A stretch of 23,802 bases of DNA from a virus. Shown here piece by piece: positions 8,468 through 16,093 of the stretch. Below the pieces are notes generated by a model. That model ran no database searches. It had not been told where the DNA came from and saw only the letters and a list, made by a program, of their open reading frames with translations. The position numbers were made by a program, and so were the translations under genes. Position 1 is the stretch's first letter. Each line of letters starts with the position of its first letter. The stretch lies in IMG/VR virus record IMGVR_UViG_3300008259_000172, positions 1 through 23,802 of that record; one strand, given 5' to 3'.

Positions 8468-11400
8468 ATGTCCAACGACACCGCAAAGACTATAACAACC
8501 AATATAGTGCCGGTCCAAGGGACTTTTGAGCCCTTGCCGCCGTATGAGTGCATCAACTTAATTGGCCCTGCAGGAACCCCGTTTTATGCCCCTGTAAACC
8601 CCAATTTAGACGGTGTAAACATCACCAACAGCACGATTAACAGCACGACCATCGGGGTAACAACTCCGGCTGCGGGCGCGTTTACTACTGCAAGCTCAAC
8701 TAATCAACCAGTAGGAAACAACGATTTAACAACTAAACTGTATGTTGACTCTTTGGCCCTTGGCATTTCTTGGAAACAGCCAGTAAATGCTGCCACAACG
8801 GCCAACATTACCCTGTCTGGTGCGCAAACAATTGATACTGTTTCAGTTGTTGCTGGTGACCGAGTTTTGGTAAAAGACCAAAGTACCCAATCTGAAAATG
8901 GTATTTACATTGTTGGAACGCCTTGGACTCGATCACCAGATGCAAACGCATGGGACGAGTTGGTTTCGGCTTTGGTGTTTGTGGAAAGTGGCGGTCAAGC
9001 AGGCTCTGCTTGGTATTGCCCAGTTCAACCTGGCGGAACCCTTGGGGTTACAGCAGTTACTTGGAATAATTTTTCGGTTGGTGGCGTTTATTTTGCTGGA
9101 ACCGGATTAAATCTATCCGGCGGCAATACATTCAACATCACAAATACTGGCGTGACAGCTGCAACATATGGCTCGGCATCCGCAGTTCCGGTTATTGCAG
9201 TTAACCAACAAGGCCAGATTACTAGCGCAAGCAATACGAATATTGCTATTGCTGGCAGCCAAATCACAAGCGGAACCATTGATTCTGCAAGGATTAGCGG
9301 TGATTATTCAGGAATTACTGGGGTTGGCACATTAACCAATTTAACGGTTTCCAACACAATTACTGGCTCAATTTCTGGCAACGCGGCAACTGCAACTAAT
9401 GCAACAAATGCAGCAACTGCAACCAATTTAGCTGGCGGCGCAACAGGCAGCTTGCCATATCAGAGCAGCGCAGGAACAACAACTTTTGTAGGAATCGGCT
9501 CAACCGGCCAAATATTGACAGTTTCTGGCGGTGTCCCAACCTGGGCCGCGCCCTCAGCAACTGGAGATGTTGTGGGGCCAGCATCATCTACCGATAACGC
9601 AATTGCTCGATTTGATAGCACTACTGGCAAAGTTATTCAAAACTCTGGCATTACTCTATCTGACGCAAATGCCTTGCAAAATGTTAATGAGATTAACTTT
9701 GACATTACCCCGGCAAGTGTTGTCGGTGGCGCTGGATCATTGTCTTGGAATAGTGACGATAACACCAAAACCTTGCAATTAATTGGCAACAACGATGTAC
9801 CAATTAAAGTTGGCGAAGAAAACTATTACAGAATTAAAGCATCGTCTGCAATTACCAAAGGCCAAGTATTAATGTTTACTGGCACTTTGGGCTCGTCTGG
9901 TGGCCTGACAGCAGCGCCAGCAACGGGATTAACTGCTGCCACCGGTAACTATATTTTAGGTGTTGCTAAAGAAAGTGGAATTACTAACGATTGGATTTAT
10001 GTTCAAGAGTTCGGCGAGGTTAAAGGCATTAATACCAGCGGATCAACTGCTAGTGAGACTTGGGTAAACGGCGATATTCTGTATTACAACCCTGCTGTTA
10101 CTGGCGGATTGACAAAAAATGTGCCAACTGCGCCAAACGCCAAGGTTCAAGTAGCTGCAGTTGTCCATGCAAATGCAAGCAATGGAATCTTATTTGTAAG
10201 GCCAACTTTTGAGCCAAGGCTAAATGATTTATCTAATGTGTTTGCTATATCTCCATCTGACGGTGATGTAATCGTTTGGGATAACGGCGATTCTCGCTGG
10301 GAAAATAGAGCGCAATCGTCATTGACTGCTGGATCAGCAACCAACCTTTCTGGCGGCGCAACTGGCTCTTTGCCTTACCAATCAAGCGCAGGAACGACAA
10401 CATTCTTGCCTGCGGGAACAGATGGCCAGGTCTTAAAACTTGCCAGCGGTGTCCCATCCTGGTCAAGCGACACATCTGGCGTCACGATTACCGATGACAC
10501 TACAACGAATGCAACCCGTTACATTACTTTTTCAAACCTCACAACTGGTAACGAAACCACACTAGATGTCTCGTCAACCAAGCTGCAATTTAATCCATCT
10601 ACTGGAACTTTAACTGCTACTGCTTTTAGCGGATCAGGCGCAAGTCTAACCTCTTTAAATGCAAGCAACATATCTAGCGGTACTGTAGCGGTGGGCAATG
10701 GAGGAACAGGCCAAACAAGTTATACAAATGGTCAGTTATTAATTGGAAACACCACAGGAAATACCCTTACAAAAGCAACATTAACTGCCGGCACCGGAAT
10801 TAGCATTACAAATGGTGCTGGATCAATAACAATCACCAACACAAATGTTCCCTATTCTGCAGATTATGTAATTGTTGCTGGTGGCGGTGGTGGCGGTGCA
10901 AATACAGGCGGTGGCGGTGGTGCTGGTGGTTATCTATCAGGAACTACTCAAATTGTGCCAGGATTTACTTATTCCGTTACTGTTGGTGGCGGTGGAGCAG
11001 GAGGCTCAAGCACAGCAGCAGGGACTAATGGATCTGATTCGGTTGCTCTTTCATTAACTGCTCTTGGTGGCGGTGGTGGCGGTGGTAGTGCATCACCAGC
11101 AGGAAAATCAGGCGGTTCAGGTGGAGCAAGTGGCGATTCAACAACTGTTGGATCAGGAACAACCGGACAAGGAAATAATGGCGGTAGTGGTTCAGGCGGA
11201 TATCCAAGTGGTAGAGGTGGTGGTGGTGGTGCAAGTGCTGTAGGCGCTGATAGATCAGGTGCAAATGGCGGTAATGGTGGCGCAGGAACTGCATCATCAA
11301 TAACTGGATCATCCGTAACTAGGGCCGGCGGTGGCGGTGGATTTGGAGAATATCGCGCTGGCGGAACTGCCGGAAGCGGTGGCGCTGGCGGCGGCGGTGC

Positions 11401-11632
11401 TGGTAGAGCAGCTTCAGGAGGAACTGCAACTGCTGGAACAGCAAACACAGGCGGTGGTGGTGGTGGCGGTGGAACTTATTCTGGAAATGGCGGAGCTGGT
11501 GGTTCAGGAGTTGTCATTATTTCTGTTCCAACTGCCAAATACACAGGAACCACAACTGGTTCGCCAACTGTTACTACAAACGGCTCTAATACCGTTATGC
11601 AATTTAATTCTTCAGGGAGTTACACAGCATGA
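8468..11632 (+). CDS. Large fibre/adhesin with polyglycine C-terminal domain
   Basis: This 1054-aa protein looks like a host-recognition fibre. Residues 1-90 are a short N-terminal region with NST/TTP repeats. Residues 91-200 hold a domain frequent in phage fibres (LYVDSLALGISWKQPV, then GDRVLVKDQ and ENGIYIV). Next come Asn/Thr-rich shaft repeats (SGNAATATNATNAATAT) and two copies of a 42-residue repeat at 318-359 and 624-665. A GNGGTGQTSYTNGQLLIGN shaft motif lies near 740. Residues of about 804-1013 are extremely Gly-rich with runs of up to eight glycines, followed by a beta-rich end with VVIISVP. Polyglycine domains of this kind form the tip of T4-like Gp38 adhesins. A clear AAGGGA precedes the start. 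Its place between coat and gp4 genes is unusual for a fibre. Confidence 0.8.
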   Translation: MSNDTAKTITTNIVPVQGTFEPLPPYECINLIGPAGTPFYAPVNPNLDGVNITNSTINSTTIGVTTPAAGAFTTASSTNQPVGNNDLTTKLYVDSLALGISWKQPVNAATTANITLSGAQTIDTVSVVAGDRVLVKDQSTQSENGIYIVGTPWTRSPDANAWDELVSALVFVESGGQAGSAWYCPVQPGGTLGVTAVTWNNFSVGGVYFAGTGLNLSGGNTFNITNTGVTAATYGSASAVPVIAVNQQGQITSASNTNIAIAGSQITSGTIDSARISGDYSGITGVGTLTNLTVSNTITGSISGNAATATNATNAATATNLAGGATGSLPYQSSAGTTTFVGIGSTGQILTVSGGVPTWAAPSATGDVVGPASSTDNAIARFDSTTGKVIQNSGITLSDANALQNVNEINFDITPASVVGGAGSLSWNSDDNTKTLQLIGNNDVPIKVGEENYYRIKASSAITKGQVLMFTGTLGSSGGLTAAPATGLTAATGNYILGVAKESGITNDWIYVQEFGEVKGINTSGSTASETWVNGDILYYNPAVTGGLTKNVPTAPNAKVQVAAVVHANASNGILFVRPTFEPRLNDLSNVFAISPSDGDVIVWDNGDSRWENRAQSSLTAGSATNLSGGATGSLPYQSSAGTTTFLPAGTDGQVLKLASGVPSWSSDTSGVTITDDTTTNATRYITFSNLTTGNETTLDVSSTKLQFNPSTGTLTATAFSGSGASLTSLNASNISSGTVAVGNGGTGQTSYTNGQLLIGNTTGNTLTKATLTAGTGISITNGAGSITITNTNVPYSADYVIVAGGGGGGANTGGGGGAGGYLSGTTQIVPGFTYSVTVGGGGAGGSSTAAGTNGSDSVALSLTALGGGGGGGSASPAGKSGGSGGASGDSTTVGSGTTGQGNNGGSGSGGYPSGRGGGGGASAVGADRSGANGGNGGAGTASSITGSSVTRAGGGGGFGEYRAGGTAGSGGAGGGGAGRAASGGTATAGTANTGGGGGGGGTYSGNGGAGGSGVVIISVPTAKYTGTTTGSPTVTTNGSNTVMQFNSSGSYTA
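9419..9544 (+). repeat. Fibre internal repeat, copy 1
   Basis: This encodes residues 318-359 of the fibre, starting ATNLAGGATGSLPYQSSAG and ending GGVPTW. It matches copy 2 at 10337-10462 closely at protein level, while many codons differ at the third base (for example AGC against TCT, CAG against CAA), so the protein repeat is maintained and is not a recent DNA duplication. Confidence 0.85.
10337..10462 (+). repeat. Fibre internal repeat, copy 2
   Basis: This encodes residues 624-665 of the fibre, starting ATNLSGGATGSLPYQSSAG and ending SGVPSW, the same 42-residue length as copy 1. Differences concentrate in the second half (FLPAGTDGQVLKLA against FVGIGSTGQILTVS), suggesting a structural unit with variable loops. 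Confidence 0.85.
10877..11506 (+). repeat. Glycine-codon low-complexity tract
   Basis: About 630 bases consist largely of GGT/GGC/GGA glycine codons interspersed with Ala, Ser and Thr codons, encoding residues of about 804-1013 of the fibre. The reading frame stays open, so the tract is coding. Such DNA is prone to slippage and recombination and could vary in length between related phages. A long open frame on the opposite strand here is a Pro-rich shadow. Confidence 0.8.
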
Positions 11633-12248: not shown

Positions 12249-12560
12249 ATGATTAATTATGAATGGAAGATTTTAGAAACTGTCATTATTGATGAAGTTT
12301 TGAAATCAGTTAAATATTGGTGCAAGGCAGCAGACGGGACTCATTCTGTAGAGACAGAGGGTAACTGGAAAATGCGTAATCAGCACTTGGTAGATTCCAA
12401 CACAACAGAACACCAGGTTGCGCATTGGCTTGATTTAGATGCTACCCAAAATGACAAACATCTCATAAAATACAGATTACAAGAGCAACTGGATGCGCTT
12501 AGTTCAGAAATAAAAACTAAACCGCCCTGGGCCGTGGACACATTTAAGGTGACGATATGA
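12249..12560 (+). CDS. Conserved uncharacterised protein, DUF7936-like
   Basis: This 103-aa protein starts [10 protein letters not shown] and continues with a charged strand pattern, a VETEGNW motif at residues of about 34-40 and a C-terminal helix ([14 protein letters not shown]) before a PPW segment. I associate this pattern with an uncharacterised family frequent in cyanophages and other aquatic phages, encoded near fibre genes. No Shine-Dalgarno sequence is clear at 12249. Its end overlaps the gp4-like gene by four bases. It closes the accessory cassette. Function is unknown; a chaperone or assembly role would be speculation. Confidence 0.65.
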
Positions 12561-13522
12561 CACAACCAATCGACATCATCTCTCGCGCCCTCAAAGATAT
12601 TGGGGCTCTTGAGGCTGGTGAAACTCCCGCGCCTGCAGATGCGCAAGACGCATTCGATATGCTCAATGACATGATTGACCAATGGTCAAACGAGCAGATG
12701 ATGGTCTTTTATAAGACTGAGATTATTTTTACCTTAACTCCAGGTCAAACCCAATATACGATTGGCCCCGGTGGCCAGATCAACGGCACAATTACCGGCT
12801 CGATTTCTGGCACAACTTTAACCGTTACAGATGTTTCCGATGGCGCTATTGCGTTAGGCATGACCCTTACTGGCTCTGGTGTAGCCAATGGAACCAAAAT
12901 AACTGCGTTTAATTCTGGCGCGGGCGGGAATGTAAACTCGGATGGAACCTATACGGTCAACATCTCGCAAACAGTTGCCAGCACAACAATTAACGCCTAT
13001 TACGAAAGACCGTTATCAATAAATTCTGCGTTTGTTAGGGTAAACACTAACTCTAATGGCCAACCTATTTTGAACGGTGGCCTAGACTATCCGGTGGCCA
13101 TTCTTAACTTAGAAAATTACGAATTAATTGGCCTTAAAACCCTTAATGGTCCATGGCCCCGCGCCCTGTATTACCAGCCTGGCGAGACCCTAGGAACAGT
13201 TACCGTCTGGCCAAATCCATCCCAGGGTGAGATGCATATATTTGCCGATACCCTGTTTCAGCGCTTTACCTCAATCAATGACGAGATAATCATCCCTCAG
13301 GGCTACATAATGGCCCTTAGATGGTGTTTAGCCGAGCGTTTGATGCCGATGTATGGAAAAGCCAGCCAAACTCAAATACAGATGATTAATGGCTTTGCAA
13401 ACCATGCAAAAGCAACCATTAAACGAACCAATATGAAACCGATGCAAGTGGCCCGTTTTGAGGATTCCTTGATTGTCGGTAAACGAGCAGATGCTGGCTG
13501 GATTCTTACTGGAGGCTTTTAA
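12557..13522 (+). CDS. Head-completion/tail accessory protein, P22 gp4-like, with inserted module
   Basis: In P22, gp4 binds under the portal to close the DNA exit channel and start tail assembly. The N-terminus here ([17 protein letters not shown], then [15 protein letters not shown]) and the [14 protein letters not shown] strand match the gp4 family, as does [12 protein letters not shown] after residue 150. Between these two blocks residues 79-148 carry a beta-rich module ([11 protein letters not shown] to STTI) that also occurs twice in the next gene. P22 gp4 has 166 residues; this protein has 321, and the module explains about 70 of the excess. AAGGTGA precedes the start, which overlaps the preceding stop as ATGA, and the stop overlaps the next start as TAATG. 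Confidence 0.82.
12791..13000 (+). repeat. Beta-module copy 1, inside the gp4-like protein
   Basis: This encodes residues 79-148 with the pattern [11 protein letters not shown], [19 protein letters not shown], a Gly/Asn-rich turn, [11 protein letters not shown] and STTI. It is the longest of three copies because of extra residues in the Gly/Asn turn ([10 protein letters not shown]). It separates the two conserved blocks of the gp4 family. Confidence 0.85.
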
Positions 13523-15393
13523 TGCCAGATTTTGGATTTGTTGGCGCAGCTTACGAAGCGCCGTCCATCTATCAAGATGCCCAGGAATGCATCAATTTTT
13601 ATCCTGAAATAGACCCTACTAAGCCCCAAGGCGATAGGGGCGTTATGGCGCTTTACCCAACTCCAGGGTTAGAAACTGTTGCTATTTTGCCAAATCAGGA
13701 AGAAGTGCGAGGCATTCGGACCTTATCCGGTGGCACCCAAGTCGTAACCGTTTGCGGTGATTTTGTGTATGTTATGGAATCCGATTACACACCCAAAATG
13801 ATCGGCCAAATGAACACATCAACCGGATTAGTTGGAATTGTGGATAACGGGGTCAATGTGTATATCGTGGACGATTCCTATCGTTACACTTGGTTTATCT
13901 CCAATCCATCGAATGCTATTTTTACCGGATCAATTTCCAGCACAACCTTAACTGTTACATCGGTTTTAAGTGGAACCATTGCAGTTGGCCAGGCAATATT
14001 TGGAAATAATATTTCACAAAACACGGTCATTACTGCGCTAGGAACTGGCTCTGGCGGGGTTGGAACTTATACAGTCAGCAACTCACAAACCACAGCGTCA
14101 ACCTCTATAAACTCGGTTGCATCGCCAGCGATTGTTACTGGCTCTATATCTGGAACAACTTTGACCGTTTCTGCGGTTACTAGCGGAACTTTAAAAATTG
14201 GCCAAACCATAGAGGGCTCTGGCGTAACCGATGGCACCATCATTACGGCTTTTGGCACGGGATCAGGGGGCGCTGGAACTTACACGGTCAGCGCATCGCA
14301 GACGGTTAGCAGCACTACCATTTATGCCCTGAACTGGACCATATTGCCAGCTAATGACGGCCCGTTTGAGGGTGGCGGCACGGTTGATATTACCGACAAT
14401 TATTTTGTCTATAACAAACCAAACTCGCAGCTGTGGGCATCATCTGACCTATTAAGCCCAATTACAGACCCGTTATCTTTTGCTAGTAAAGATGGCTCAC
14501 CAGATGACCTTGTGTCAATTATTGTGGACCGCCGCGAAGTTTATTTACTCGGCGAGATGTCCTCCGAAGTCTGGATTAATTCGGGTGCCGTGCCATTTCC
14601 GTTTACTCGCATTCCAGGCACATCCACCCAGCAAGGTATTGCGGCGCAATATTCCATGTCCAGAATGGGCAACTCGTTTGCATATGTGTCAAAAAACAAT
14701 CGCGGCGAGGCTATGGTGGTGCGCATGAATGGGTATTTTCCAGAAAGAATATCCACCCATGCGGTTGAAACAACTTTAGTTAATCAGAATGTTTCGGATG
14801 CCTTGGCCTGGACCTATCAATTAGAGGGCCATGAGGTATATGTTGTTACTTTTCCAAGTATTGGCAATAATGGCCTGACATGGGCATATGACAACACCAC
14901 AGGCCTCTGGCATAAGTGGCTTTATCGTAATAATGAGAATGAATTTGAGCGTCATCGTGGCAACTGCTGCGCATTCTTTAATCAACAAGTATTGGTTGGT
15001 GATTACGAAAACGGCAAGATTTATCAGTTAGGCCGTAATTTTTACACTGATGACGGCCAGCCAATCCGCAGGATTCGTAGGGCTCCCCACATCACATCGG
15101 ATTTACAACGCCAGTATTTCCATGAGTTGCAGATTCAATTCCAGCCTGGCGTTGGTTTATCTACCGGCCAAGGGCAAGACCCCCAGGCTATGTTGCGCTG
15201 GTCTAATGACGGCGGATCAACCTGGTCTAATGAATATTGGACAAGCATCGGAAAACAAGGAAAATACCAGAATCGCGCCATATGGAGGCGGTTAGGATGG
15301 TCCAGAGATAAAGTGTTTGAGGTATCAATTTCTGACCCAGTTAAGGCGGTTATTGTTTCAGCAAATCTTAAAGCAGAGGCTGGAGAAAACTAA
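13522..15393 (+). CDS. Packaged-DNA stabilisation protein, P22 gp10-like, with two inserted modules
   Basis: In P22, gp10 forms a hexameric ring under gp4 and connects the tail needle and tailspikes. The N-terminus ([19 protein letters not shown], then [10 protein letters not shown]) and later blocks ([47 protein letters not shown]) match this family. Two tandem copies of a beta-module lie at residues 135-197 and 206-268, between RYTWF and the [10 protein letters not shown] block. Without them and their linker the protein would be near 490 residues, close to the 472 of P22 gp10. The start overlaps the gp4-like stop as TAATG, indicating translational coupling of two partners that bind each other in the virion. 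Confidence 0.85.
13924..14112 (+). repeat. Beta-module copy 2, inside the gp10-like protein
   Basis: This encodes residues 135-197: [52 protein letters not shown] and STSI. It is in tandem with copy 3, separated by eight residues (SVASPAIV). Confidence 0.87.
14137..14325 (+). repeat. Beta-module copy 3, inside the gp10-like protein
   Basis: This encodes residues 206-268: [52 protein letters not shown] and STTI. It has the same 63-residue length as copy 2 but differs in many synonymous positions. Confidence 0.87.
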
Positions 15394-15611
15394 TGTCTAC
15401 CCCGCAAAATCAACGGCTGCCAACAAGTCCTTTAGTAGACCAAACAGGCCGGCCAACCCGTGCCTGGCAGTTATTTTTATTAAACCTTTTAAATTTTTCT
15501 AGCGCATCTACAGCTACCGCTGGATCAGCTACCTTGCCTGCTAACCCAGAGGGATTTATTGAGGTAACCGTAAACGGCGAATCTAAAAGAATCCCGTATT
15601 ACAACTTATAA
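15393..15611 (+). CDS. Small conserved phage protein downstream of gp10-like gene
   Basis: This 72-aa protein has a polar N-terminus with SPLVDQTGRPTRAWQLFLLN, a short Ala/Ser/Thr linker and an end LPANPEGFIEVTVNGESKRI followed by PYYNL. The GFIxVxVNGxxxxIPYY ending recurs in small phage virion-region proteins as far as I know, with no assigned role. It occupies the place of the tail-needle gene (gp26) in P22 but is far too short and lacks the long coiled coil, so I do not call it a needle. A GGAG lies before the start, which overlaps the gp10-like stop as TAATG. Confidence 0.6.
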   Translation: MSTPQNQRLPTSPLVDQTGRPTRAWQLFLLNLLNFSSASTATAGSATLPANPEGFIEVTVNGESKRIPYYNL

Positions 15612-15613
15612 AT

Positions 15614-16093
15614 ATGTCAAATACTGAGCCAACAATTATTGTTAGAAAAGCCACAGAGGCCGATTTGCCGGCATATCTGCAACTTAGCGCCGACTTTCAT
15701 GCTGCGTCACCTATGCAAAGGGTTTGCCAATTTGAGCCAGAGGGATTTAAAGGATTTGTAGTATCTGCCATGAATAACCCAGATATTTGCATATTGGCGG
15801 CTGAACTTAATGGCGAAATCGTAGGCATTACAGGGGGGATTGTCTACCCTTTGTATTTTTCGCCATCCCACAAAGTTGCACAAGAATTATGGTGGTGGCT
15901 AACTCCTGCGGCCAGGGGCTCTGGAGTTGGTAATAAGATGTTTAAGCATTTACAATTGTGGTCAAAGGAACGCGGAGCAAAAACCATTTTTATGATTGCG
16001 CTAGAGGACGAAAGAGCGGAAAAAATGGAAAAAGTTTACTGTCGGGCAGGCTTTGAGCCGATGGAGCGTACATTTATGAAGGGGATCGAATAA
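15614..16093 (+). CDS. GNAT-family N-acetyltransferase
   Basis: This 159-aa protein has the full GNAT plan: an N-terminal strand and helix (IIVRKATEADLPAYLQLS), central strands (CILAAELNGEIVGITGG), the acetyl-CoA pyrophosphate loop R101-G-S-G104-V-G106 in motif A after WWWLTPAA, and the C-terminal motif B (AEKMEKVYCRAGFEPMERTF). It transfers an acetyl group from acetyl-CoA to an amine, probably in the host cytoplasm; the substrate is unknown. Such genes are repeatedly found between structural genes of podophages, so a virion protein or host defence factor may be the target. It follows the preceding stop by two bases and overlaps the next gene as TAATG. Confidence 0.85.
   Translation: MSNTEPTIIVRKATEADLPAYLQLSADFHAASPMQRVCQFEPEGFKGFVVSAMNNPDICILAAELNGEIVGITGGIVYPLYFSPSHKVAQELWWWLTPAARGSGVGNKMFKHLQLWSKERGAKTIFMIALEDERAEKMEKVYCRAGFEPMERTFMKGIE

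Follow-up and report, generated by a model that had tools for sequence, protein, structure and literature searches.

The tail genes of the virus analysed here carry three copies of one β-module of roughly 65 residues (~63 to 72), a single copy in the head-to-tail adaptor and a tandem pair in the gp10-like tail-closure protein, and we consider it probable that this module is an autonomous, promiscuous β-unit that serves as a generic, outward-facing decoration of virions. It is no speciality of these two proteins; it occurs in more than 10 virion protein families. The window, i.e., the whole stretch of DNA that was analysed, comprises positions 1 to 23,802 (23,802 nucleotides) of the record IMGVR_UViG_3300008259_000172. 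Copy 1 (positions 12782 to 13000, plus strand) covers residues ~76 to 148 of the adaptor, in the β-region that separates helix 2 from helix 3. Copy 2 (13912 to 14121, plus strand) covers residues ~131 to 200 of the gp10-like protein and is followed in tandem by copy 3 (14128 to 14331, plus strand; residues ~203 to 270). No further copy was found in the whole 32,336-base (32.3-kb) record.

The preliminary description, made from the sequence alone, had recognized one β-unit shared by the two proteins, and this holds statistically. The pairwise local scores between the copies were 168, 198, and 212, compared to means of 46 to 47 for shuffled sequences (z, 17 to 22), and a profile of the module, with a median of 85 bits on 564 real copies, never exceeded 13.3 bits when run on 6,077 shuffled sequences. 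At amino acids common to two copies, only 18 of 36, 21 of 41, and 11 of 40 codons are identical, and therefore, the three copies are not recent duplicates, as had been claimed from their synonymous differences. Threonine, serine, and glycine make up 52% of the module residues; 2.3% are charged and 4.9% aromatic. The conserved columns are mostly turn glycines, threonines, and core β/hydrophobic residues, and, apart from one nearly invariant tyrosine, the only aromatic residue of that kind, no conserved acidic or aromatic patch was seen in them.

Searches of Pfam and NCBIfam with the module gave no significant match, and profile searches of the PDB returned only chance matches to antibodies; no carbohydrate-binding family was matched in any of the three. 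Weak matches to GTP_EFTU_D2, RecA, and Big_6 were dismissed; Big_6, the best hit to an Ig-like family, stayed below the cut-off (E 0.1; 13.3 bits, with a cut-off of 27.6), which leaves the module with no significant Ig-like family match. A literature search on the motif GTYTVS yielded no paper. The module thus lacks a named function, as had been supposed. A tblastn search of phage records with the lone module found nothing, although MW202520 and MW202674 hold the module; since both were missed, the failure is probably due to low-complexity masking.

The protein that carries copy 1 (positions 12557 to 13522, plus strand; 321 amino acids) matches phrog_12985 over its whole length (E 8.9e-43) and Pfam family PF24175 (SU10_adaptor) with 42.3 bits, above the curated cut-off of 27. 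With its predicted structure as the Foldseek query, the best folds in the PDB were the adaptors of cyanophage A4, GP4, KHP30, DEV, and SU10, with those of T7 and KP32 lower in the list; P22 gp4 was not among the best 50 matches listed. In the AlphaFold2 model, helices 4-14, 26-44, 248-266, and 271-292 form a four-helix bundle with a β-region between them. In T7 and SU10, fibres dock on the β-domain of the adaptor, and P22 and Sf6 are reported to have no such dock (PMC6702177, PMC9509320); P22 gp4 is therefore not the closest model. Hence, the label "gp4-like" is better replaced by SU10/T7-type adaptor, because the SU10_adaptor match is above the cut-off and the structural matches agree. In the model, the module interrupts the predicted β-region that matches the T7/SU10 fibre dock. 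As a side observation, the adaptor gene is labelled "portal protein," apparently wrongly, in three Manatee Spring records (L084, L085, and L088).

The second carrier (positions 13522 to 15393, plus strand; 623 amino acids) is a gp10-like β-propeller tail-closure protein (head closure Hc3; phrog_578, E 6.6e-105). Foldseek matched its model to the closure proteins of P22 (gp10; 8eap, E 6.9e-25, TMt 0.81), Sf6 (gp8), Pam1, and Pan3 (9vyg, TMt 0.85), with TMt values of 0.81 to 0.85. Subtraction of ~140 module residues leaves ~483 amino acids, compared to a median of 493 for module-free gp10 frames, and the earlier estimate that the protein without its modules has about the normal length is thus borne out. 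When strands are counted in groups of four on the model, the tandem pair appears to sit in an outer hairpin or loop of propeller blade 2. The proposal that the two module-bearing proteins belong to two adjacent rings of the tail is supported. They lie among gene families, and in a gene order, that mark a P22-like short-tailed phage: P22-type portal and coat and a DNA-ejection protein are neighbours, and the adaptor is followed by gp10. Directly after gp10, in the position of P22 gp26, lies a gene for a protein of 72 amino acids (15393 to 15611, plus strand) with an N-terminal motif that is found in most relatives (P..(F/L)(L/I)D..tgRP.r.W, usually resembling P..FLD..tgRPtr.W). It has no match in Pfam and might correspond to gp26 as the plug or needle.

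AlphaFold2 models of the monomers, built from alignments of 70 relatives of the adaptor and 80 of the gp10-like protein, had mean pLDDT values of 86.5 and 91.7, respectively, and the modules were among the best-predicted parts (mostly 90 to 97), with a dip at a long loop of the adaptor copy. Each copy is predicted with confidence as a compact β-unit in which two short strands lie between a long first and a long last one, the outer strands being ~20 residues long: strands 76-95, 103-105, 114-118, and 130-148 in copy 1 (pLDDT mostly 90 to 96); 131-150, 157-161, 168-173, and 181-200 in copy 2 (~91 to 97); and 203-222, 229-232, 240-244, and 252-270 in copy 3 (~92 to 98). These models agree with the claim of an independent fold. 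The ends of each module are adjacent, and it could therefore be spliced into a hairpin loop with the host fold undisturbed. Module-free relatives exist for both proteins, and alignment with them gave the clean insertion points that had been predicted. The adaptors of Rhodoferax phage P26218, MW202557, and Pseudomonas phage PAE2 align on both sides of the module, which appears as a gap, and the gp10s of the same three phages, of MW202674 and MW202520, and of Xanthomonas phage PBR31 align cleanly as well. At the adaptor site, PBR31 has a divergent insert that looks related to the module. The position of the insert is fixed across relatives, at core columns 71-76 of the adaptor and ~117-129 of gp10.

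Beyond these two proteins, a scan with a consensus query revealed the wide distribution of the module: 59 loci came from genome records of bacteria and archaea, and viral contigs yielded more. The carriers include Sinorhizobium phage phiLM21 and a Rhizobium prophage, the latter with the module in its sheath and cement. Among 89 module proteins other than adaptors and gp10s, Pfam identified capsid cement proteins (8; PF23982/PF22758), neck terminators (6; PF23961), baseplate J proteins (6; PF04865), tail sheaths (4; DUF3383, phrog_205), and pectate-lyase-like tailspikes (3; PF12708), as well as glycine-rich fibres and capsid proteins of two families; PHROGs added baseplate wedge (10) and minor head proteins (8). 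In one (pro)phage-like locus (L417), neighbouring genes for cement, a head protein, phrog_1876, and sheath all carry the module, and in two others (L425 and L409), the same is true of cement, phrog_1876, and sheath. A secreted Bacteroidota protein of 2,296 amino acids (L434:6300-13187) has five modules next to GEVED, fn3, and secretion sorting domains; the module is therefore not confined to viruses. Two longer profiles, PHROG 21413 and PHROG 38233 (tail fiber protein), include the module, which is not recognized there as a domain of its own. We thus see in it a new domain of a known kind, the promiscuous decoration domains of phages, one that has no name, is apparently masked by standard low-complexity filters, and occurs on more than 10 kinds of virion protein in environmental phages and in prophages. 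With a public profile, many uncharacterized phage proteins could be annotated, as could those parts of the two PHROGs that bear the module.

In relatives, copy number was tallied over the loci retrieved (the best 80 per scan; the frequencies are not population estimates, and the host names are record titles, many of them of metagenome bins). The complete distinct adaptors have 0, 1, or 2 modules (67, 166, and 11 proteins, respectively), and the complete distinct gp10s have 0, 2, or 4 (158, 88, and 6), never 1 or 3. In all 236 distinct complete pairs, gp10 modules occur only alongside an adaptor module; the adaptor module by itself was seen in 77 loci. Seeming cases of gp10s with one module and of adaptor-module loss (L236) were rejected as truncations at contig edges. 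On a core tree of 107 relatives, presence of the gp10 modules amounts to one change and that of the adaptor module to two, one of which is again a contig-edge truncation. Three gp10s with four modules (L018, L028, and L061) appear to have the fourth nested in a loop of the third. Copy number does move, since the adaptor count differs by one module between L224 and L234, which are near neighbours. Adaptors and closure proteins with 0, 1, 2, or 4 copies are natural pairs for testing virion decoration.

The modules group by position, with ~50% identity between the three positions, and copies from the same genome are hardly more alike than random pairings, so that nothing points to concerted evolution. 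These position-specific lineages and the lack of convergence within genomes led us to reject recent duplication and gene conversion. Each of the three positions represents an old lineage of its own, and purifying selection is evident from dN/dS values of 0.06 to 0.08 for modules and 0.03 to 0.04 for cores (approximate values; saturated pairs were dropped). The length of the protein encoded after gp10 also varies with the modules: it exceeds 100 amino acids in 2% of the phages with gp10 modules, in 46% of those with the adaptor module only, and in 97% of the module-free phages, and it is a stub of 72 to 80 amino acids in nearly all phages with gp10 modules. The module-bearing relatives of IMGVR_UViG_3300008259_000172 form one lineage, and therefore, any link between modules and other traits is a sample of one.

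In our model, phages would insert the module into exposed loops of virion proteins as a decoration that faces outward. In the monomer models, the adaptor copy lies in the β-region between the helix pairs, the equivalent of the T7/SU10 fibre dock, and the tandem pair of gp10 apparently in the outer hairpin of blade 2; by homology to SU10 and T7, both sites should project outward. With 12 adaptor subunits and 6 closure subunits, the stoichiometry we infer, each ring would then bear ~12 modules, and together they would form a collar round the neck. The role may be generic: bulk, stabilization of contacts between rings and appendages, or weak, non-specific contact. A generic function is suggested because the module decorates cement, sheath, neck terminator, baseplate, fibre, and spike proteins of unrelated phages. 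It is imaginable, if quite doubtful, that the module is a widespread unit of virion collars, its copy number set by the symmetry of the rings, with 12 adaptor modules pairing with 2 × 6 closure modules across the 12-to-6 step; if true, this would explain why gp10 has modules only as even counts and only where the adaptor has one too.

The preliminary description had proposed, as one option, binding to host-surface or mucus glycans, and a related reading is that the modules adhere weakly to host-surface, capsule, or environmental glycans and thereby raise the encounter rate, a role that has been suggested for Ig-like domains and demonstrated for neck-borne carbohydrate-binding modules of lactococcal phages. 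We regard this as rather unlikely. The presence of the module on many exposed virion proteins and on the secreted Bacteroidota protein, with its GEVED, fn3, and secretion tail, would suit adhesion, as would the carbohydrate-binding modules that 936 phages bear on the neck (PMC6669499). However, the low content of charged and aromatic residues is more in keeping with a neutral structural decoration than with a site for ligand binding, no conserved patch of acidic or aromatic residues is present beyond the single tyrosine, neither Pfam nor NCBIfam gave a carbohydrate-binding match, and the modules evolve only mildly faster than the cores. The glycan or mucus binding proposed earlier is thus not supported, and weak ligand or glycan binding is possible. 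T7 lodges its fibre between a dock on the adaptor and one on the nozzle (PMC6702177), and in a similar way, the adaptor module and the gp10 pair could clamp a tail fibre or spike at its base, between the two rings. The location of copy 1 in the region that matches the fibre dock, the dependence of gp10 modules on an adaptor module, and the stub after gp10 all speak for such an appendage dock. On the other hand, 77 loci manage with the adaptor module alone, the module is also found on proteins that dock no fibre (cement and sheath), and the correlations rest on a single gain in gp10; on balance, we judge this role unlikely. Both the adhesive and the docking roles overlap in part with generic decoration.

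It is very improbable that the two or four gp10 modules act as a moving arm that lengthens the tail on adsorption. In SU10, four Ig-like nozzle domains lie between blades 2 and 3, blades 1 to 3 facing away from the channel, and these domains straighten on adsorption, with the tail becoming longer (PMC9509320). The arrays of two or four modules in gp10 seem to occupy the same propeller region (blade 2 here, by strand counting), but the module matches no recognized Ig family, most phages have only two, and the copies on adaptor and capsid would be unexplained. Most remote of all is that the module is low-complexity sequence of chance similarity or a neutral passenger. Its high content of threonine, serine, and glycine and the failure of the filtered tblastn search to find any copy could be read in this way. 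The shuffles, the purifying selection, and the confident folds speak against this reading, however, and chance similarity is refuted. Generic decoration therefore is the reading we prefer.

Known systems offer several parallels to such decoration. Ig-like domains of phage virion proteins are likewise small β-domains on unrelated exposed proteins (Fraser et al. 2006, as cited in PMC10684548); the module differs in having no significant Ig match in Pfam, four predicted strands, and a composition rich in threonine, serine, and glycine. As in the SU10 nozzle protein gp17, tandem β-domains appear, by strand counting, to be inserted around blades 2/3 of a propeller below the adaptor (PMC9509320), but here they number two or four, belong to another family, and sit on a core closer to that of P22 and Pam1. 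The fibre docks of T7 gp11 and gp12 also add β-structure to the adaptor and the ring below (PMC6702177); there, however, the docks are integral to each fold, whereas the module is an extra insert common to both proteins. The neck passage structure of 936 lactococcal phages is decorated with exchangeable modules, which sit at the ends of separate collar proteins and whose binding has been measured, whereas the present modules are inserts in core proteins (PMC6669499). The best independent structural match, although a partial one (TMt 0.42), is the cement protein of Arthrobacter phage Bridgette (8eci), which Foldseek aligned with the adaptor model over 94 columns (probability score 0.97; 23% identity). 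Its sequence scored only 5.6 bits with the module profile, with strong bias, and unmasked blastp gave 31% identity over 68 residues without composition correction; this protein is free-standing, whereas the module is an insert.

Two further genes of the neighbourhood should be mentioned. A GNAT acetyltransferase is encoded within the tail cluster (window positions 15614 to 16093), and PBR31 likewise has an acetyltransferase gene shortly after gp10. Between the coat gene and the adaptor (window positions 8468 to 11632) lies the gene for a glycine-rich, fibre-like protein of 1,054 amino acids (PF21722), which matches head-decoration and tail-fibre PHROGs.
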